This document shows, piece after piece, positions 5,230 to 57,988 of a DNA stretch of 64,000 nucleotides. The DNA comes from Pacificoceanicola onchidii (GTDB lineage: Bacteria; Pseudomonadota; Alphaproteobacteria; Rhodobacterales; Rhodobacteraceae), in assembly GCF_004804335.1 (NCBI RefSeq), contig NZ_SRXY01000003.1, positions 558,001 through 622,000 on the forward strand, read 5' to 3'. A model generated the notes under the pieces. The model did no database searches. It saw only the letters and a list, made by a program, of their open reading frames with translations, and had not been told where the DNA came from. Position 1 is the first letter of the stretch. Each line of letters starts with the position of its first letter. The position numbers and the translations under genes were made by a program.

Positions 5230-6039
5230 CTACAGCGCCAAGTCCAGCATCACCGGCACATGATCCGACGGCTTCTCGCGCCCGCGCACGTCTGATTGGA
5301 TCTCGCAGGACACCATCAGATCGGCCGCCTGCGGCGTCAGCAGGAAGTGGTCGATCCGAATGCCGTTGTTCCGCTGCCACGCCCCGGCCTGGTAATCCCA
5401 GAAACTGTAATGCCCCGGCCCCTGCGTCCGGGCGCGGAAGGCTTCGGTGAAGCCGAGATTGACGATCCGGCGAAAGGCCTCGCGGCTCTGGGGCCGGAAC
5501 AGGGCATCTTCGGTCCATTGCTCCGGTTTGGCGGCGTCTTCGGCCTGCGGGATGATGTTGTAGTCCCCGCCCATCAGGGCCGGCATCTCATCGGCCATCA
5601 ACGCGCGCGCCCGCGCCTCCAGCCGCTTCATCCAATCCAGCTTGTAGGCGTATTTGCCCCCTTCCACCGGGCTGCCGTCCGGGTTCAGCTCCACCGGATT
5701 ACCGTTCGGCAGGTACAGCCCGCAGATCCGGCAGGCGTGGGTCTCGCCCATGACAGTGGCCTCGATCCAGCGCGCCTGTTCGTCGCTGTCGTCACCGGGC
5801 AGGCCCCGGGTGACGTCTTCCAGTGGCAGTTTGGACAGAATAGCGACACCGTTGAAGCTCTTCTGACCATGGGTTTCCACATTATAGCCGCGCTCTTCGA
5901 AGACTTCGCCCGGAAAGGCCTCATCGACCGACTTGATCTCCTGGCATAGGATGACGTCGGGGTGCGCTTCATCGATCCAGTCGGTGAGAGCGTTCAGGCG
6001 GGCCTTGATTCCGTTGATATTGAAAGTGGCGATTTTCAC
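5230..6039 (-). CDS. xthA: Exodeoxyribonuclease III
   Basis: A 269-residue AP endonuclease / 3'-5' exonuclease of the ExoIII (EEP) family, acting in base-excision repair. Motifs appear in the expected order: MKIATFNINGIKAR with the metal-binding Asn, VILCQEIKS with catalytic Glu, FNGVAILSK, GLYLPNG, PALMGGDYNIIPQAED with the Asp-Asn pair, GIRIDHFLLT, and the terminal PSDHVPVMLDL with the catalytic His. Length and motif spacing are normal. It is transcribed away from the repeat-peptide cassette, and the 376-nt gap upstream contains its promoter region. Confidence 0.96.
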   Translation of the reverse strand: MKIATFNINGIKARLNALTDWIDEAHPDVILCQEIKSVDEAFPGEVFEERGYNVETHGQKSFNGVAILSKLPLEDVTRGLPGDDSDEQARWIEATVMGETHACRICGLYLPNGNPVELNPDGSPVEGGKYAYKLDWMKRLEARARALMADEMPALMGGDYNIIPQAEDAAKPEQWTEDALFRPQSREAFRRIVNLGFTEAFRARTQGPGHYSFWDYQAGAWQRNNGIRIDHFLLTPQAADLMVSCEIQSDVRGREKPSDHVPVMLDLAL

Positions 6040-6415
6040 GGGCGCAGTCTCCTGATGTCAGGGGCTCAAACTCCCGAACTTCTGCCCTCGGCACAAGTCC
6101 GAAAAACGGCAAACACGCGCCGGGCGCCCGTGAATTTGCCGGGCCAGACCCCGCGCGAGTCGCGCTTTCAGCCATGCGATTCGCGACTTTGCAACTTTGC
6201 AAACCCCCGTTGCGTTGCAAATTTCGAAACTATCCACAGAAAAAAATTCTCTGGGGATAACTCAGATAGTGAAGCTAAGAGACGTCAGTGTGACGCGGAT
6301 TTGATGTGAATACTTTCGGTATTAATCAACTTTAACAAGAATTAACTTTTTTGCAAACGCGTTTTCCGGGCAACTCGAAAGGGCATACCACGCAACCCCT
6401 TCGAGGAACACGAAA
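6040..6415. other. 376-nt divergent intergenic region between xthA and the repeat-peptide gene
   Basis: No gene is visible here. The left part is GC-rich. From about 6180 the sequence turns AT-rich and holds a cluster of TTTGCAA-type repeats (annotated separately), then from 6296 an AT-rich stretch with several TTAA steps where the promoter for the repeat-peptide gene probably lies. I could not settle on a single well-spaced -35/-10 pair. A good ribosome-binding site, GAGGA, lies about 10 nt before ATG 6416. Confidence 0.7.
6188..6221. promoter_or_regulatory. Cluster of TTTGCAA / TTGCAAA half-sites, possible operator
   Basis: TTTGCAA (6188-6194), CTTTGCAAA (6195-6203) and TTGCAAA (6215-6221) lie within 34 bp. 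TTTGCAA-type repeats are the reported recognition element of ScfR/RamB-like short-chain acyl-CoA regulators in Rhodobacterales, but other factors bind similar sequences. The site lies about 195 nt before the repeat-peptide ATG and about 150 nt before xthA. The assignment is tentative. Confidence 0.35.
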
Positions 6416-7018
6416 ATGACCGCACAACGTAAGCACAGCACCCTTAAAGAAATCCTTTCCAACGACCGCACAAACAGCGCATTTGACGGCGACGCCGTCG
6501 AAAGCTGCATGTCCTGGTCCGGCCCTTCTGGGCACGACATGACCTCAGGTGACGCTGTTGAGAGTCTGATGTCCTGGTCCGGTCCCACCGATACTCGTGC
6601 AGAAAATGGCGACGCCGTCGAGAGCTTCATGAGCTGGTCCGGCCCGAAAGCCACTTCTGCCGAAAATGGCGACGCGGTTGAGGCCTTCATGAGCTGGTCT
6701 TCCCCCGAAGGCACCCGCGCCGAAAATGGCGACAACGTCGAAGCCTTCATGTCCTGGTCCGGCCCGAAAGCCACCGCTGCGGAAACCGGCGATGCGGTTG
6801 AGGCCTTCATGAGCTGGTCTTCCCCCGAAGGCACCCGCGCTGAAAATGGCGACAATGTCGAAGCCTTCATGAGCTGGTCCGGCCCGAAAGCCACCTCTGC
6901 CGAAAACGGCGACGCGGTTGAGGCGTTCATGAGCTGGTCCAAGCCCGAAGGTACGCGCGCCGAATCCGGTGACAACGTCGAAGCCTTCATGAGCTGGTCC
7001 AAGCCGACCCGCGCCTGA
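6416..7018 (+). CDS. Nine-repeat peptide, possible multi-core precursor (unknown function)
   Basis: A 200-residue protein with a 24-residue head (MTAQRKHSTLKEILSNDRTN and four more residues) followed by nine head-to-tail 20-residue units. The units start at residues 25, 45, 65, 85, 105, 125, 145, 165 and 185; the last is 16 residues. The consensus is GDxVEAFMSWSxPxxTxAEN. GD, VE, MSWS and the following Pro are invariant. There is no signal peptide or membrane segment, and the only Cys is in unit 1. ATG 6416 has GAGGA about 10 nt upstream. It is followed after 67 nt by a helical protein and then a DMT transporter in one operon. The head-plus-identical-units form resembles multi-core precursor peptides, but a structural repeat protein is equally possible. 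Confidence 0.8.
   Translation: MTAQRKHSTLKEILSNDRTNSAFDGDAVESCMSWSGPSGHDMTSGDAVESLMSWSGPTDTRAENGDAVESFMSWSGPKATSAENGDAVEAFMSWSSPEGTRAENGDNVEAFMSWSGPKATAAETGDAVEAFMSWSSPEGTRAENGDNVEAFMSWSGPKATSAENGDAVEAFMSWSKPEGTRAESGDNVEAFMSWSKPTRA
6488..7015 (+). repeat. Nine tandem 60-bp coding repeats
   Basis: Tandem 60-bp units encode the 20-residue repeats. Units 4-9 alternate in two versions: one carries GDAVEAF with SSPEG or SKPEG, the other GDNVEAF with SGPKAT or SKP. They therefore form a 120-bp higher-order repeat present three times (6668-7015). Units 1-3 are more diverged. This pattern suggests expansion by duplication of a two-unit block at the 3' side. Confidence 0.9.
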
Positions 7019-7085
7019 TCCATGCAGATACCCGGGCGGGGCGGGTTGCCGCCTTGCTGGTCCACCCAATGAGGAGAGCCAACCC

Positions 7086-8147
7086 ATGAGCAATGTTATC
7101 CAACTGGCCGTCCCGTCCCGGATCCTGCCCTTGGAAGCGCGGATCACCGCGCTTCTGGGTCTCTTTGCCGAACACCGCCGCACCGGCGATGACGTGTTCT
7201 GGCTCAAAGAGAACGGAGAGATGCTGAATATCCTGCAAAGCACGGGGCTTCCTGTGCCCGGCGAGGCGCTGGCCGTGCATGCAGGATTTTATGCAAATGC
7301 CGCCAAAAGGCTGCAATTCTTTCCACAGTATTATCGTTTCCTGCTTAGCCTTGCTCTGGATCTAGAGGATCTGGGCATGCCGGGGCAGGAGGCTGAAAAG
7401 ATGGTGCACTACGCGGCTCAGGAGGGGCTGGTCGATGCAGAGATGTCCGACCTGCAGCGCGCGGAAGCGCGTCGCCTGATGACGCGCCGTGGCGTCGACC
7501 CTGTTCGGGATACAAGGCTAGACGACCGCCTGCGCGCTTTCGTAAGCAGGACAAAGACCTTTGCCCTGCCCAACAAGAAAGCGGCTTATGAGCTGACCCA
7601 TATCGTGTTCTACCTTACCCAATATGGCCACCGCCAAGCGGACCTCGGCCCGGACGCCGTGACCAGCTTGCATTTTGCCGGCCTGACCGCTTTTCTTGAC
7701 CAGAACGCGGACCTATTGGCAGAGATCTGCATCGCGATGCGGTTTCTGGGGGAAGTTCCGCCGCCGGTCTGGACAGGGTGGCTGCGCCGCGAGACCGCGG
7801 CCTTTACCGTGGAGGAGGGCGAGACCGTGTCGATCAATGACAACTACCACGATTTCCTGATCTGCAACTGGCACGAAGCCACCTGCGGCGGCGAGGCATT
7901 CCGCAAGCCGCTCTCGGGTGGGCGCATGCGGTTTGAAAAACAGCCGCATCACGCCGCCGCGTTGCGCGAGATTAGCCAGGCCATGCTGGCGCTGGATGAT
8001 GCGCGGGTGGGGGACTGGTCCATCATGAAACGCCGCATGGCAGACACCGTATCCGAAGAAGCGCTTGGCATGTTGGAAGTCGCCGCCACCACGAGCGACC
8101 ATTTCGAAGCCTATTTTGAAGGGTTCGCCCGGGCAGGGACCCAATGA
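7086..8147 (+). CDS. Helical protein of unknown function (DUF6902-like) paired with the repeat peptide
   Basis: A 353-residue soluble protein with no signal peptide or membrane segment, predicted mostly alpha-helical. I do not recognise a catalytic family with certainty; it recalls DUF6902-type proteins of Rhodobacteraceae. A central segment, KKAAYELTHIVFYLTQYG (about residues 163-180), and a later NDNYHDFLICNWHEATCGG with clustered His, Cys and Asp are possible active-site regions. ATG 7086 has GAGGAGA about 9 nt upstream. The stop overlaps the start of the DMT transporter (ATGA), so the two are translationally coupled. It could modify, bind or process the upstream repeat peptide; this is inferred only from gene order. 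Confidence 0.7.
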   Translation: MSNVIQLAVPSRILPLEARITALLGLFAEHRRTGDDVFWLKENGEMLNILQSTGLPVPGEALAVHAGFYANAAKRLQFFPQYYRFLLSLALDLEDLGMPGQEAEKMVHYAAQEGLVDAEMSDLQRAEARRLMTRRGVDPVRDTRLDDRLRAFVSRTKTFALPNKKAAYELTHIVFYLTQYGHRQADLGPDAVTSLHFAGLTAFLDQNADLLAEICIAMRFLGEVPPPVWTGWLRRETAAFTVEEGETVSINDNYHDFLICNWHEATCGGEAFRKPLSGGRMRFEKQPHHAAALREISQAMLALDDARVGDWSIMKRRMADTVSEEALGMLEVAATTSDHFEAYFEGFARAGTQ

Positions 8148-9016
8148 ACCCCTCGGTCACAGGCGCCGTTCTGGCGATCCTCTTCACCGGGATGATCGCT
8201 GCCGCTGATGCCATCACCAAGCTGGTGGCCGGCAGCTATGAAGCGCCGCAGCTCTACGCCCTTGCCGCCGCCTTGGTGGCGCTCATGTCCTTTGGCGCAT
8301 CGAAAGCCAGCGCCGGTGAAAGCCTGCGGATAAAATCCGTCAAGCCCATGATCTTGCGCACGATTCTGACGATCATCGCGGCGCTCGCCTTCTTCCAGGC
8401 ATTCCGCCATCTGCCCTTTGCGGATGTGTTCCTGTTCATCGGGTTGATCCCGCTGATCGCAGCGGCCCTGTCCGGCCCGATCCTTGGCGAAGCGCCGCGC
8501 CCCGTGGCCTGGCTTGCGCTGACCATCGGTGCCTGCGGCGTTGTCTTCCTGATGCCCGGCGGTCTGACCGGCGCGCAGGCAGGGCACGTTTGGGCGCTTG
8601 TTGCGGCTTTCAGCGGCGCGGCCTCCATGTTGCTGGCACGGGTGATTGCCAAGGTCGAGCGTGTGCCGCTGGCGCAGGTCTTCTGGCCCAATCTCGGCCT
8701 TGCCGTTGTCATGGCGCTGGCACTGCCCTTTGTCTGGAAACCGATGGCTTTCATGGACATGATCTGGATAGTGGCCTACGCGGGATTCCTGTTTGGCGCG
8801 CGGTATGTCTCCGCCGAAGCCATGCGCTTCCTGCCAGCCTATGTGGCCATGCCGGTGATGAACGTACAGTTTGTCTGGATGGTGGCGATCGGCATCTACG
8901 CCTTTGGCGAAATCCCGAGCTTTGGCACGGTGATGGGCGTCATGCTGGTGATCGCCTCGGGCCTCTACCTCGTGGCCGAGGAGACGATTGCAAAGGCAGG
9001 CTCGCAAAACGCCTGA
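8144..9016 (+). CDS. EamA/DMT superfamily transporter
   Basis: A 290-residue inner-membrane protein with ten hydrophobic segments arranged as two EamA repeats, typical of drug/metabolite transporters. It begins AVLAILFTGMIAAADAITKL, and the second half holds VWALVAAFSGAASMLLARV. Substrates of DMT proteins cannot be read from sequence. Its 4-nt ATGA overlap with the upstream helical gene ties it to the repeat-peptide cassette, where it could export a product (inference). A hairpin terminator follows at 9037-9062, closing the operon. Confidence 0.85.
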   Translation: MNPSVTGAVLAILFTGMIAAADAITKLVAGSYEAPQLYALAAALVALMSFGASKASAGESLRIKSVKPMILRTILTIIAALAFFQAFRHLPFADVFLFIGLIPLIAAALSGPILGEAPRPVAWLALTIGACGVVFLMPGGLTGAQAGHVWALVAAFSGAASMLLARVIAKVERVPLAQVFWPNLGLAVVMALALPFVWKPMAFMDMIWIVAYAGFLFGARYVSAEAMRFLPAYVAMPVMNVQFVWMVAIGIYAFGEIPSFGTVMGVMLVIASGLYLVAEETIAKAGSQNA

Positions 9017-9036: not shown

Positions 9037-9062
9037 AGCCGCTCCTTGCAAGGGGCGGTTTT
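9037..9062 (+). terminator. Rho-independent terminator of the repeat-peptide operon
   Basis: CCGCTCC (9039-9045), a 6-nt loop and GGGGCGG (9052-9058) form a 7-bp stem with one G-T pair, followed directly by TTTT. It lies 22 nt after the transporter stop codon and just before the converging erpA gene. Confidence 0.7.
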
Positions 9063-9074
9063 CATGTGTGAAAA

Positions 9075-9398
9075 TCACATTGAGAAAGAGGTGCCGCAGC
9101 CGCAGGAACTGGTGGCGTTCGGGTTCTCGATGACAAAGCGCGCGCCGATCAGCTCTTCGCTGAAATCAATCACCGCGCCAGCGAGAAACGGCAGGGACAC
9201 CGGGTCCACGACAACGCGCTGACCATGGCCTTCGAGCACCATGTCCTCGCTTTCGGCATCATCGAGCCGGATGTCGTACTGAAACCCCGAGCAGCCGCCG
9301 CCTTCGACAGCCACGCGCAGCGCCTTGCCCTCGTCCCCGGCGCCGATCTCGGCAAGCCGTTCAAAGGCGCGGTCCGTTACTTTCGGAGGGAGCTGCAT
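9075..9398 (-). CDS. erpA: Iron-sulfur cluster insertion protein, HesB/IscA family
   Basis: A 107-residue A-type Fe-S carrier of the IscA/ErpA/SufA family, which delivers clusters to apo-enzymes. The three ligand cysteines are visible: GGCSGFQYD in the middle and the C-terminal SSCGCGTSF pair. I chose ATG 9398, with GAGG about 9 nt upstream and starting MQLPPKVTDRAFERL, rather than an upstream ATG that would add 36 atypical residues. It lies divergent to dgt, and their upstream regions overlap. Which A-type carrier subgroup it belongs to cannot be fixed by eye, so the symbol is the best guess. Confidence 0.88.
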   Translation of the reverse strand: MQLPPKVTDRAFERLAEIGAGDEGKALRVAVEGGGCSGFQYDIRLDDAESEDMVLEGHGQRVVVDPVSLPFLAGAVIDFSEELIGARFVIENPNATSSCGCGTSFSM

Positions 9399-9478
9399 CG
9401 CGGCGATCCTCTTGCTTTCAATCAAATCAGGCTTGGAATATATGGGCGCAAGGGACAGACGACAAGGATAAGGTTGAC

Positions 9479-10639
9479 ATGCGTGCAGAGTTTGCTTGCG
9501 AGCCATCAGGGGCGCGCGGTCGTCTGATCGTAGAAGAGGAAAGCGCCTTTCGCTCCTGTTTTCAACGGGATCGGGACCGGATCATCCACGCATCCAGCTT
9601 TCGGCGGCTCAAGCACAAGACGCAGGTGTTCGTCGAGCACGAGGGCGATTTCTACCGCACCCGCCTGACGCATAGCATCGAGGTGGCGCAGGTCGCGCGC
9701 ACCATCGCCAATGCACTGGGCCTGAACACCGATCTGACCGAAGCCGTGGCGCTGGCGCATGATTTGGGGCACACGCCGTTTGGCCACACCGGCGAAGACG
9801 CGCTGCACGCGCTCATGACGCCCTATGGCGGTTTTGACCACAACGCCCAGACGTTGAGGATCGTGACCAAGCTCGAGTGCCATTACACGGAGTTCGACGG
9901 GCTGAACCTGACCTGGGACACGCTGGAAGGCATTGCCAAGCATAATGGTCCGGTCGCAGATCCGATCCCCTATGCCTTGGCCGAATACAACGCCCGCCAC
10001 GATCTGGAACTGCACACCCACGCCAGCGCCGAAGCGCAGGTGGCGGCGCTGTCGGACGATGTGGCCTACAACAATCACGATCTGCAGGACGGTTTGCGGG
10101 CCGGGCTGTTTTCGGAGGCGGACATCTACGATCTGCCGATCATTGGTGCGGCCTATGACGAGGTCGATCGGCTCTATCCGGACACTGACGCTTACCGGCG
10201 GCGGCACGAGGCGCTGCGCCGGGTTTTTGGCGTGATGGTGGCGGATCTGATCGACACCTCGGCGGGCAAGCTGAAGGAAAGCGGCGCGCGTTCTGCGCGG
10301 GACGTTCGCGAGCTGGGGGGGCCGGTTATCGCGTTCTCCAAACCCATGTGGGCCGATCTGAAGCAGATCCGTGCTTTCCTATTCAAGAACATGTACCGCG
10401 CCCCCAGCGTGATGGAGCAGCGCGCCAAGGTCACGCAGGTCGTCGAGGCGCTTTTCCCGATCTACATGGCAGACCTCACGCTTCTGCCGCAACGCTGGCA
10501 CGGTGAGGCTGAGGCGGCGCAGGATGATACGGCGCGCGCGCGGCTTGTGGCGGATTACATCGCCGGGATGACGGACCGGTACGCCCTGCAACAGCACGCG
10601 CAATTCACCGGGACAGATATTCTGCACGACGGCATTTGA
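9479..10639 (+). CDS. dgt: Deoxyguanosinetriphosphate triphosphohydrolase-like protein
   Basis: A 386-residue HD-domain dNTPase that hydrolyses dNTPs to nucleoside and triphosphate. Visible parts are FRRLKHKTQVF near the N-terminus, RTRLTHSIEVAQVARTIA supplying the first metal His, and AHDLGHTPFGHTGE with the HD doublet. The C-terminal half is helical and ends in the usual HGLRPQ-less short form of alphaproteobacterial type 2 enzymes. It is divergent from erpA and followed after 122 nt by an SDR-like gene. Confidence 0.92.
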   Translation: MRAEFACEPSGARGRLIVEEESAFRSCFQRDRDRIIHASSFRRLKHKTQVFVEHEGDFYRTRLTHSIEVAQVARTIANALGLNTDLTEAVALAHDLGHTPFGHTGEDALHALMTPYGGFDHNAQTLRIVTKLECHYTEFDGLNLTWDTLEGIAKHNGPVADPIPYALAEYNARHDLELHTHASAEAQVAALSDDVAYNNHDLQDGLRAGLFSEADIYDLPIIGAAYDEVDRLYPDTDAYRRRHEALRRVFGVMVADLIDTSAGKLKESGARSARDVRELGGPVIAFSKPMWADLKQIRAFLFKNMYRAPSVMEQRAKVTQVVEALFPIYMADLTLLPQRWHGEAEAAQDDTARARLVADYIAGMTDRYALQQHAQFTGTDILHDGI

Positions 10640-24877: not shown

Positions 24878-26635
24878 TCAGATTAGCGGGTCGTTTTCTT
24901 CCGCTTCGGCTTCCAAGCGGCCGTTGTTTTCTGCTTCGGCCTCCATGGCGTTCCAATTGTTCGCCAGGGCCATGAAGATAGCGTTGATGTCGTCCAGATC
25001 GACAACCTGTTCCTGAATGGTCGGCGTATCGTCAACCTGCTCCTGAAAGGTCGGTGTTTCTTCGGCCTGTTCCTGACTGGTCGGCAGATCGCCAATGCGG
25101 TTGACGCTCATCTGCAGGCTGGCCTCGCCGGTGTGCTCCACGTAGAGCACCTCGATTTCGTGATCGCCGGGTTGCAGTTCCACGGTGATTTCCTGTGCGG
25201 TCTCGAACGGCACATCGCGGGTGTCGGCCACCAGCGTTCCGTCGACGAACAGCTGCGCCTGATCGTCCGCCAGCATGTTGAACAGATACACGCCGCCCTC
25301 GGGCGATTCGAGCGTCTGCAAGTACTGCGCGGCCACCTGATCGGACGGGCCACCGTCCCAGATGCCGCCCGCTTCACCCACGAAGTTGAGCGCATCTTCG
25401 GTGCCGGTGGCATCGGGCGTGGCGGCAAAGTCTATCTCTTCAAGCGCCATATCCGCATTGGCCAGCGTAAAGAAGTTCGCGGCAAAGACGCCAACGGGAG
25501 GGGCAGGCGGCGCGGCGGTGTCCGGCTCGTCCTGATCGGAGCCTTGCTCTTGCACGGGTTCGGGCGCGGGCGGTTCCGGGACCGGATCGGGGGGTTCGCG
25601 GTCTCCCGCGGGCAATTCGGGGGCAACCGGCTCCACCGGTGCATCCGGGGCAGGGGCTTCGGCATCGTCGCTGTCATCCACATCCGGCTCAGGTTCGGGC
25701 GCAGGCTCCGGCTCAGGTTCCGGCTCTGGCTGTGGCTCGGGTTCGGGTGCAGGCTCGGGTTCAGGATCAGGGATCGGATCCGGATCACCCGGCACTACAA
25801 CCTCGTCACCGGCCTGATCCACACCGGTCTCCGCCAGCCCGGCTTCGATCACGTCGTTAATCTCGTCGAAGTGCTCGAACACCGAAGGGTGTATCTCGTC
25901 CGGCAGGCTTGCGGGAAGCGGCGCGGGCTCACCATAGTTGGCCTGGTAGGTGATCATCGCGGACAGGAAATAAACCGTCTCCGTCCCATGCGGCGCGTCG
26001 TCGACGTAGAGCTCGTCCGCAGGAATATCCGACAGCGTCGTGGTCAGAAGATCCGACAGGATAGAGGCAATCGGCAAAAGCTGGACATCCGCTTCGGGCA
26101 GGGCGGCGTTCACCTGTTCAACCAGGGTCACGTACCAATCGTGATACGCCCCCATGTTGTAGTCATGATAGGCCGCCAGCGCCGCCGCATCCGGGCTGCC
26201 GCTGCTGTCAAACGGCGCCATATCGGCCCAGCCTTCGTAGATCAGGATCTGCGCACCGGGCTGGCTGGCCAGCGCCGTCTGCACCGTGTCGATCACTGCG
26301 TCGAGCGGGCTGCGCGTGTCAAAGGCGTAGTTCGTGTCCGGGCTGTTGTCCTGAATGAAATTGGCCGGGGTGATCAGCACGGAGTTCAACTCAACAGAGG
26401 AAAAGCTCTCCCCTTCCTCGATCGAGGCATCCACCCCGGCAAACCCCCAAAGCGAGGGCGGCTCCACCGCATCGGCAAATTCCCTGAGAAACCCATACCC
26501 CCCGGCCACTTCATAGGTGTGGCCGGCGGTATCGGCGAACAGGTCCATCCAATGCGGCACATTGGTCAAATCCCCGCCTTCGGCATAGTTCACAAGGGAA
26601 TTGCCAAAGAGATATTGTGAAACGCTGACAGGCAC
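24878..26635 (-). CDS. SGNH-like hydrolase joined by a Pro-Glu linker to a PA14-like domain
   Basis: A protein of about 585 residues. The N-terminal part has QYLFGNSLVNY, a GDSL-type block with Asn in place of Asp, and ends LPDEIHPSVFEHFDEI, where DxxH is the SGNH Asp-His pair. Residues about 290-370 are a run of [13 protein letters not shown] repeats. The following region (about 385-530, FAANFFTLANADMAL through QLFVDGTLVADT and EIEVLYVEHTG) resembles a PA14-like carbohydrate-binding fold. The tail has three diverged QEQ repeats (TFQEQVDDTP, TIQEQVVD). The start is uncertain: GTG 26635 has AGGGG 10 nt upstream, while ATGs at 26692 and 26743 lack this. No signal peptide is evident, so type I secretion is possible. 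Confidence 0.65.
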   Translation of the reverse strand: MPVSVSQYLFGNSLVNYAEGGDLTNVPHWMDLFADTAGHTYEVAGGYGFLREFADAVEPPSLWGFAGVDASIEEGESFSSVELNSVLITPANFIQDNSPDTNYAFDTRSPLDAVIDTVQTALASQPGAQILIYEGWADMAPFDSSGSPDAAALAAYHDYNMGAYHDWYVTLVEQVNAALPEADVQLLPIASILSDLLTTTLSDIPADELYVDDAPHGTETVYFLSAMITYQANYGEPAPLPASLPDEIHPSVFEHFDEINDVIEAGLAETGVDQAGDEVVVPGDPDPIPDPEPEPAPEPEPQPEPEPEPEPAPEPEPDVDDSDDAEAPAPDAPVEPVAPELPAGDREPPDPVPEPPAPEPVQEQGSDQDEPDTAAPPAPPVGVFAANFFTLANADMALEEIDFAATPDATGTEDALNFVGEAGGIWDGGPSDQVAAQYLQTLESPEGGVYLFNMLADDQAQLFVDGTLVADTRDVPFETAQEITVELQPGDHEIEVLYVEHTGEASLQMSVNRIGDLPTSQEQAEETPTFQEQVDDTPTIQEQVVDLDDINAIFMALANNWNAMEAEAENNGRLEAEAEENDPLI

Positions 26636-57373: not shown

Positions 57374-57988
57374 ATGTTCGTCAAAGGACTATCGACGCGG
57401 CACACCACCGTAGGGACTTTTCGCTATGGCGTTGTGTACGAAATCGACGAAAAGGACGGGGGCATCCGCAAGCATGTTCTGCCTCTGTTGGGGGGCGACA
57501 CGCCCGCGCTTGAGAAAATCTCGAAAGCGCAGGCGGAAAAGGAGCGGTCCGCGCCAATGCAGTTTACCCCGAAGGCGACGCCTGCGGATGTGGATGCGTC
57601 TGCCGCAGACCTGCGGGGTAAACTTGCGGCGGCCGAGAAGGCGAAGGCTGAGGCCGAGGCGGAGACGGAAGCCGCAGAACAACGCGCCATTGAAGCGGAG
57701 AAGGCGCTGCCCGAGTCGGAAGCAGAACTTGCCAAGGTTCAGGCCGAGCTGGGCGCATCGGCAGCCGACTTGGCCGAAACGGGAAAGCGGCTGGCGGCCG
57801 CAGAACAGCGCGCCGTCGAGGCGGAGAAGGCGCTGTCCGAGTCGGAAACGAAACTTGTCAAGGTTCAGGCCGAGCTGAGCGCATCGGCAGCCGACTTGGC
57901 CGAAACGGGGACCCAGCTCGAAGCCGCACAGTCGGAAAACGCTGATCTGAAGGCTAAATTGACCGCGCTTGAAGAGGCTAAGAAGTGA
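57374..57988 (+). CDS. Phage protein with coiled-coil tandem repeat, post-capsid position
   Basis: A 204-residue protein. Residues 1-60 form a small globular head (MFVKGLSTRHTTVGTFRYGV). From residue 75 on it is a heptad-rich coiled coil made of two near-identical 42-residue units (KVQAELxASAADLAETG) and a partial third. It follows the capsid gene in the position of decoration or connector-adjacent genes, but no family is recognised. The tandem duplication at DNA level is recent. The stop overlaps the next GTG by 4 nt. Confidence 0.75.
   Translation: MFVKGLSTRHTTVGTFRYGVVYEIDEKDGGIRKHVLPLLGGDTPALEKISKAQAEKERSAPMQFTPKATPADVDASAADLRGKLAAAEKAKAEAEAETEAAEQRAIEAEKALPESEAELAKVQAELGASAADLAETGKRLAAAEQRAVEAEKALSESETKLVKVQAELSASAADLAETGTQLEAAQSENADLKAKLTALEEAKK
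57671..57922 (+). repeat. 126-bp tandem duplication
   Basis: The segments 57671-57796 and 57797-57922 are highly similar 126-bp direct repeats that encode the 42-residue coiled-coil units. Differences are mostly single substitutions, for example ATTGAAGCG versus GTCGAGGCG. Such repeats can expand or contract by slippage. Confidence 0.9.

Follow-up and report, generated by a model that had tools for sequence, protein, structure and literature searches.

A repeat precursor with one near-invariant pentapeptide and its DUF6902 partner, a candidate peptide-modification module of Rhodobacteraceae

Introduction

What would a bacterium make from a gene that encodes the same short peptide many times over? 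The question is raised by a three-gene operon of Pacificoceanicola onchidii (Rhodobacteraceae), which lies in a stretch of 64,000 nucleotides (RefSeq assembly GCF_004804335.1, contig NZ_SRXY01000003.1, positions 558,001 to 622,000) that we call the window and to which coordinates refer unless another locus is named. The operon comprises a repeat precursor gene, a gene for a DUF6902 protein and a gene for an EamA transporter, and it had been singled out from its letters alone as a possible undescribed peptide or repeat-protein system (the original prediction). Here we argue that it is probably a multi-core module resembling those of ribosomally synthesised and post-translationally modified peptides (RiPPs), in which the DUF6902 protein would modify each core, most likely by epimerisation.

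Results

The repeat precursor and DUF6902 are found together

The precursor is a 200-residue open reading frame (ORF) with a 24-residue head (MTAQ...AFD), eight units of 20 residues and a ninth of 16. Tandem Repeats Finder detected the array with a period of 60 at 6551-6940 and with periods of 60 and 120 at 6602-7000, and the nine near-identical 20-residue units of the original prediction are a real array with a shorter last unit and a weaker start: near-identity is strongest in units 3-9, and the otherwise conserved Phe is Cys in unit 1 (CMSWS) and Leu in unit 2 (LMSWS), against FMSWS in all the others. Starts of the type M(T/S/N)A(L/Q)xK recur, by eye, among the precursors of relatives. Matches of the repeat proteins to Pfam and NCBIfam models (UBA_HYPK, Herpes_UL35 and others) were rejected as repeat artefacts, none of the matched stretches passing alone and the matches varying by genome.

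To what extent does the array depend on its neighbour? The window's family, which is Rhodobacteraceae-type judging by its named relatives, was sampled with 248 genomes from as many genera; DUF6902 was present in 69 of them, and a model of two repeat units matched 65 genomes, every one of them among these 69, and none of the 179 lacking DUF6902 (Fisher p 1.7e-55, kinship ignored). The same arrangement in relatives excludes chance, and a precursor of head and identical cores, as had been proposed, with an obligate partner is well supported. The result that had been named as refuting it, a partner gene without a repeat gene, did not occur for DUF6902: among the four genomes missed by the unit model, G041 (locus L097, YIAGL twice) and G099 (L086, MMCCS twice) have short divergent repeats by eye, the DUF6902 of G139 is a fragment at a contig edge, and G039 has a copy devoid of the presumed active site, described below.

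Beyond the family, 385 genomes of the class held DUF6902 over the cut-off in four, all from the window's family, and one further match was weak and below the cut-off; a tblastn search of plasmids with DUF6902 gave no match. The best 80 of 360 related stretches came from Marivita, Shimia, Salipiger, Pelagimonas, Puniceibacterium and similar genera. One contig filed under the actinobacterium Enemella evansiae (L137) bears a roseobacter-type locus with a DUF6902 protein 66% identical (compare G002, L065, in the window's family), and is probably a mislabelled or contaminated assembly.

Each genome holds to one pentapeptide

What each unit conserves is five residues long, in most cases F-x-(S/T/C)-x-(S/A/L/C/M); we call this pentapeptide the core. 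A regular expression for the core took 148 loci to 146 with a candidate ORF, 121 distinct ORFs and 109 that were kept; the 12 dropped ORFs (L059, L066, L069, L085, L086, L092, L093, L097, L098, L122, L171 and L173) include contig-edge, N-masked, wrong-frame and divergent cases, and the expression itself presets which residues are allowed at core positions 1, 3 and 5, where the frequencies it yields carry no weight as evidence. The loci came from two search routes that partly share organisms, and only identical ORFs were collapsed. An F-anchored count applied the pattern G-x2-(V/T/C/L/I/A)-x2-F to all 121 distinct candidates and gave 795 units in 109 ORFs with at least two units; a smaller F-anchored set (782 units, 107 ORFs) was restricted to ORFs picked by the core expression, hence hiding exceptions.

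Within genomes, identity at core positions 2-5 was 98.7, 99.3, 98.4 and 99.1% across the 795 units, and 782 of these match their own genome's modal tetramer. Between genomes it was 46, 82, 43 and 52% in the smaller set, where the spacer reached within-genome values of 32-46% at the seven positions before the G and 53-67% at the four tested positions between G and F. A looser anchor, with F, Y, M, I, V, L and C all allowed in first place, yielded 885 units in 114 ORFs and 87-90% within-genome identity, a value depressed by visibly misplaced matches. Modal pentamers took 31 forms in the 109 ORFs of the core expression, led by FSSGS (22), FTSGS (21) and FTSWS (16), with the window's FMSWS found once.

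When units of one genome with the same pentamer were paired, all codons were shared in 348 of 2876 pairs and 41% of codons differed, against 48% between genomes in a sampled comparison that is weighted differently. Codons thus differ almost as much within as between genomes, which indicates that core identity is held at the amino-acid level, and selection for one identical peptide per organism would be the simplest reading of these counts.

Could the repeat protein instead stay whole, as a folded protein or scaffold such as a beta-solenoid, with DUF6902 as its dedicated chaperone or modifying partner? The units are numerous, with a spacing from core to core that is mostly 20 or 21 residues, and the best single-sequence AlphaFold model of the repeat protein has regular strands at a predicted local distance difference test score (pLDDT) of 67.7, but the other four models reach only 34.7-53.4. 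The commonest 4-mer per precursor ORF occurs from 2 to 20 times, odd spacings of 9 to 30 residues are also present, the spacers drift, leaving only some five residues constant in each unit, the stop falls exactly after the fifth and last core residue in 77 of 109 ORFs, and the invariant residues of DUF6902 look enzyme-like, all of which makes a folded repeat protein improbable.

Core position 3 was Ser in 721, Thr in 42, Cys in 20, Asn in 11 and Gly in one of the 795 units, that is, Ser, Thr or Cys in 783. The Gly is a misplaced anchor in L035, and all 11 Asn belong to the FTNWC units of L069, which breaks this rule together with L129; outside the F-anchored set, both YIAGL units of L097 have Ala there.

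Cores switch as a set between relatives

Loci L037 and L154 have nearly identical DUF6902 proteins and carry seven FTSGS units and six FSSGS units, respectively, with ACN against TCN in all units. A Marivita-type clade of 15 rows shows the modal cores FTSGS, FTSAS, FTSGL, FTCGL, FTTSC and IMSAS. On a DUF6902 tree, a quick one in which 44 of the 106 inner branches are open, the modal core changes 48 times, against 74-81 in the ten shuffles shown of 50, so that cores follow the enzyme lineage yet change fast. Covariation of the enzyme with Trp at core position 4 offered three to four independent contrasts, too few to use.

DUF6902 is related to a family that includes a reported lasso-peptide epimerase

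The 353-residue partner, which the original prediction had left without a family, belongs to Pfam DUF6902 (PF21843; E 2.5e-157, 523.7 bits against a cut-off of 27, residues 1-350). It also matches DUF6895 (E 1.1e-22, 81.1 bits against a cut-off of 23.8, residues 29-228 by HMMER), and the two profiles align over residues 64-235 (hhalign 96.4%, E 1.4e-9). By sequence it is a DUF6895 homologue but not a member proper, the DUF6902 model scoring far higher. DUF6895 (PF21836) includes, according to the title of a paper cited in PMC13352647, a lasso-peptide epimerase (Shi et al., ACS Catal 2026, doi 10.1021/acscatal.5c08590), so that the earlier statement that no known maturase is present falls in part.

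Seven residues are invariant in an 11-row DUF6895 alignment, ten rows of which come from outside Rhodobacteraceae-type genomes by name or group: Y204, H208, G217, D250, E254, Y312 and H313. Their counterparts in DUF6902 (Y168, H172, G181, D209, E213, Y254 and H255) form the same motifs, Y-x3-H...G, D-x3-E and Y-H, with identical spacing inside each motif, and each is present in 66-68 of 68 rows. Many of the invariant DUF6902 positions are polar residues in alternating helices.

An AlphaFold model built from 64 sequences, the window's and those of relatives, reached a pLDDT of 93.2 and a predicted template modelling score (pTM) of 0.91. VIA-align ranked class II terpene cyclases, prenyltransferase beta subunits and the complement thioester-containing domain (TED) among the first (best Z 12.3, root-mean-square deviation 4.1, 231 residues to 5bp8), most of its leading matches being of this fold class. 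Foldseek returned nothing at E <= 0.001 for the model, and the sequence had no meaningful match in the PDB (best E 0.71). Mean conservation was 0.89, 0.90, 0.86, 0.94, 0.80 and 0.63 in helices 37-53, 80-95, 122-133, 164-177, 208-220 and 254-266, against 0.49-0.66 in the helices before and between them, and this alternation lends some support, independent of the fold matches, to a toroid whose cavity is lined. Judging by helix order the conserved helices would face inwards, and DUF6902 is predicted to be an alpha/alpha-toroid with the invariant His/Asp/Glu/Tyr set of DUF6895 in its presumed inner helices.

The copy of G039 (L098, 4923-5999) is the only one of 68 with H172Q, D209L, E213R, Y254L and H255T. 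It occupies the same genomic place and is the sole full-length DUF6902 without a visible repeat ORF, none of at least 50 residues lying upstream; it is a single case at 26% identity, where the alignment is less sure.

DUF6902 might also sequester a ribosomal peptide, be it a toxin or a signal, as a binder or immunity protein that catalyses nothing. Such a role would suit the finding of one partner per precursor, and catalysis by DUF6902 is itself a proposal from sequence, but the polar invariants are common to a family with an epimerase published under that title, and the switch of cores between L037 and L154 with little change in DUF6902 is unlike sequence-specific binding; we consider sequestration very unlikely.

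The chief rival keeps the multi-core system and gives DUF6902 another chemistry, acting on the Ser, Thr or Cys of position 3 to form an ester, thioester or azoline, to shift an acyl group from N to O or to aid self-cleavage. It draws on the near-constant presence of these usual nucleophiles in the 783 units and on a fold class that spans chemistries as unlike as those of terpene cyclases and prenyltransferases. It is weakened by the genome with Asn in 11 units and the genome with Ala in both, by the title of the closest family with a published activity, which names an epimerase, and by operon proteins that show no extra domain above the Pfam cut-off, and we regard it as a less likely account than epimerisation.

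Several DUF6895 genes elsewhere adjoin short precursor-like ORFs

Of 398 genomes sampled from the phylum, 13 had a DUF6895 match: eight in the window's family, three good ones elsewhere and two weak ones below the cut-off. Just upstream of each good match (L112, L113 and L114) lies a small ORF with core-like segments: GSLVGPWFVL in the first, ELAGPWYIY and ELVGPWFVL in the second, DWTFVSPNYVY and DWTFISHNYVY in the third. Among plasmid records one DUF6895 query matched eight, of which seven were examined, and Gemmatirosa was matched by a second query. Directly upstream of the DUF6895 gene in Kitasatospora, two Streptomyces and Pseudalkalibacillus lies a small ORF with a leader of approximately L-x2-SGIIN-x3-TL-x-QL. 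Streptomyces fungicidicus has a short ORF without a motif of the SGIIN type, one gene ahead of two tandem DUF6895-like genes; in Cupriavidus there is at most an unconvincing frame of 136 residues two ORFs upstream, and in S. meliloti no clear small ORF was seen upstream of the gene. No lasso gene is named in the annotated DUF6895 stretches, where no dedicated search was made; the Cupriavidus stretch is unannotated.

Across L112, L113, L114, L199, L200, L201 and L203 we observed a leader of approximately SGIIN-x3-TL-x-QL with aromatic cores, for example LVGPWFVL or GYVLAWDKYVLVV, and the DUF6895-linked cores obey no Ser/Thr/Cys rule. The short ORFs beside DUF6895 genes outside the Rhodobacteraceae are likely to form an undescribed precursor family, and one toroid enzyme with one short precursor is a plausible common theme of the DUF6895 and DUF6902 loci.

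Two further loci may be recorded here. On S. fungicidicus plasmid p1 (L202:6718-8603) the tandem pair, DUF6895-like by alignment, is followed by a serine hydrolase gene. In G242, of the window's family and without DUF6902, a truncated-looking DUF6895-like frame (L115:7112-7405 onward) has just upstream an ORF of 97 residues with the aromatic stretch ELGWWAVVSDHCVV.

The locus is mostly kept in place and has DnaA boxes upstream in many relatives

The features of the locus are listed in Table 1.

Table 1. Features of the operon and its flanks in the window.
Feature	Position	Strand	Basis
xth, divergent flank	5230..6039	-	protein-family match
Promoter region between divergent xth and precursor gene	6040..6415	+	near-DnaA boxes, TTAA pairs
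Repeat precursor gene, 200 aa	6416..7018	+	ORF and tandem-repeat analysis
24-residue head, presumed leader	6416..6487	+	ORF translation
Nine units, core FMSWS in units 3-9	6488..7015	+	ORF translation, unit counts
DUF6902 protein, 353 aa, putative core-modifying enzyme	7086..8147	+	Pfam, alignment, model
EamA/DMT transporter, presumed exporter, optional	8144..9016	+	Pfam, neighbourhood survey
Hairpin and T4, terminator-like	9039..9062	+	by eye; unflagged by consensus scan
erpA, flank	9075..9506	-	protein-family match
dgt, flank	9479..10639	+	protein-family match

The flanking genes, on one side what we take to be xth and on the other what we take to be erpA and dgt, were named from protein-family matches. 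Pfam identified the six proteins scanned between 5230 and 10639 as the repeat protein, Exo_endo_phos, DUF6902, EamA, Fe-S_biosyn and HD, and above the cut-off the three operon proteins gave only DUF6902/DUF6895 and EamA, plus one repeat artefact. Neither a lasso cyclase (Asn-synthetase-like) nor a leader protease was found among these six, to which the search was limited, and the locus is not placed among the lasso peptides.

The transporter joined to the DUF6902 gene by an ATGA overlap is confirmed as EamA (E 2.6e-12). A neighbourhood survey covered 68 loci, those of 67 of the 69 genomes and the window's own, with G139 left out; xth was a neighbour in 63, erpA in 58 and EamA in 52, some absences being due to contig ends. 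The genomic place of the locus is mostly conserved, and the exporter, present in most loci as the proposed layout had it, is an optional part and not an obligate one. The terminator said to close the operon is visible by eye, a hairpin of seven pairs followed by TTTT, but a consensus terminator scan did not flag it. A scan for sigma-70-like promoters between 6040 and 9150 found none, and a candidate attenuator hairpin between the precursor and DUF6902 genes was not supported (folding z -0.59). Elsewhere in the window, tandem repeats lie at 57671-57909 (period 126, 91% match) and 24998-25085 (period 30).

What might control the operon? Taking the DnaA-box consensus to be TGTGGATAA, we found no perfect box in the window's 6040-6415 and boxes with one mismatch at 6230-6238 (-), 6252-6260 (+) and 6305-6313 (+), that is, at -186, -164 and -111 from the precursor ATG. 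Of 107 ORFs, 68 had perfect boxes on the precursor strand within 300 bases upstream, where mononucleotide shuffles would lead one to expect 0.2; the boxes clustered at -200 to -150 (41 of 107) and at -120 to -100 (52 of 107), with both clusters in 28. When both strands were counted over the 450 bases that precede xth, a box was present in 36 of 63 DUF6902-positive genomes, relatives that are not independent, against none of 29 controls. Thirty control genomes had been picked by hand, 24 lacking DUF6902 in the 248-genome sample, one from the 385-genome sample and five without a DUF6895 match in the 398-genome sample; none has DUF6902 in the stretch around xth, and the thirtieth had no whole xth and was not counted. 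The spread of box positions is nearly equal whether measured from xth (standard deviation 43) or from the precursor (44), so that the choice of the gene served by the boxes rests on the two clusters and the DUF6902-negative controls.

The window also has TTAA-N6-TTAA twice, from 6322 and 6332, that is, three TTAA at a spacing of 10 bases (6322-6345), partly common to near relatives; the motif occurs in 20 of 107 upstream regions including the window's, against 0.75 expected from mononucleotide shuffles, and the array is possibly a regulator site. The boxes found in many relatives suggest that control may be linked to replication.

Discussion

A multi-core, RiPP-like module seems to us the best account of this operon. 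What a RiPP system comprises, a precursor with leader and cores and a linked enzyme, is present here as architecture and co-occurrence, with a putative role for the leader and a putative activity for the enzyme. The operon would yield many copies of one short peptide per organism: the precursor, a head followed by up to 20 repeats that carry one near-invariant pentapeptide between variable spacers, would be bound core by core by DUF6902, which would modify each one, most likely through epimerisation of a single residue from L to D, H172 and H255 serving as acid and base with the aid of E213/D209. Unlinked proteases would then release the cores from the spacers, EamA or another transporter would export the product, and expression may be under DnaA-linked, replication-coupled control. 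In favour of this account we count the co-occurrence of the repeat with DUF6902, the sharp limits of the core, the constancy of the core despite differing codons, the ORFs that stop at its last residue, the joint switch between L037 and L154, the homology to DUF6895 with its seven invariants, the alternation of conserved helices, the small ORFs beside several DUF6895 genes, and the loss of five of the seven residues in L098, where no repeat ORF was seen. We infer the modification, the trimming and the function of the product.

Several observations weigh against this account. The link to epimerisation rests on a DUF6895-family lasso-peptide epimerase published and known by its title, and the match of Y254-H255 is by motif only, outside the hhalign range; the VIA-align Z of the DUF6902 model is no higher than values that helical proteins can attain through common arrangement. 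The strong preference for Ser, Thr or Cys at position 3 goes beyond what epimerisation needs and might point to a different chemistry, but it has exceptions and is not shared by the DUF6895-linked cores. The switching of cores between relatives with a nearly unchanged DUF6902 speaks against strict recognition of the variable residues, and 13 of the 795 units deviate from their own genome's tetramer. Finally, the operon contains no protease gene, and EamA was not found in 16 of the 68 loci, including one that a contig end truncates.

A DUF6895 epimerase being already published, by title, what is surprising here is the lineage-specific, jointly switching pentapeptide. A search for DUF6902, for the core strings and for multicore RiPPs with Rhodobacter found no open-access paper, subscription journals and preprints lying outside its scope. 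If our account is true, about a quarter of the sampled genera (69 of 248) carry an undescribed peptide product made with one stand-alone enzyme, whose homologues in actinobacteria, a bacillus and other proteobacteria have short precursors of other kinds as neighbours, and the DUF6895/DUF6902 superfamily would be a family for RiPP tailoring in general. A pattern in which each organism keeps to a single pentapeptide in nearly all copies, and close species differ in it as a set, would be an unusual natural record of peptide evolution, and the questions of specificity and function are directly testable in culturable marine strains. A bolder proposal, which we put forward only tentatively and think rather unlikely in full, is that of a new and widespread RiPP class in roseobacter-type bacteria: a two-gene machine of DUF6902 and multi-core precursor whose product would be a modified pentapeptide that differs by lineage, usually has Ser/Thr/Cys at its centre and serves as a species-specific signal, with expression tied to chromosome replication through DnaA boxes. 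Joint core switching between sister species would then be the trace of a changing signal dialect.

How does the module compare with known systems? The DUF6895 family, with its lasso-peptide epimerase known by title, is the closest: residues 29-228 of the window's protein are homologous to it (64-235 by hhalign), the seven invariants correspond by alignment and motif, and several of its members adjoin small repeat- or core-bearing ORFs. Unlike that epimerase, the window's enzyme has no lasso gene among the scanned neighbours and is paired with a multi-core precursor whose cores have five residues; unlike DUF6895, DUF6902 is confined, over the cut-off and among the 385 genomes of the class, to the window's family. 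MslH, the D-Trp lasso epimerase of MS-271, metal-dependent according to the title of PMC10406935, resembles the role proposed for DUF6902 as a stand-alone epimerase acting on a ribosomal peptide.

In predicted fold DUF6902 resembles the alpha/alpha-toroid enzymes (class II terpene cyclases, prenyltransferase beta subunits, complement TED), unlike which it has no meaningful sequence match in the PDB. LanC is also an alpha/alpha-toroid enzyme; the fold of MslH is not known to be related to that of DUF6902. The precursors of cyanobactins, graspetides and the yeast alpha-factor consist of a leader and many identical short cores with variable spacers. The window's precursor shares with such multi-core RiPP and pheromone precursors a presumed leader and the repeated cores; unlike them, it has none of their maturation enzymes among the scanned neighbours, and the cores of its family differ as a set between close relatives.

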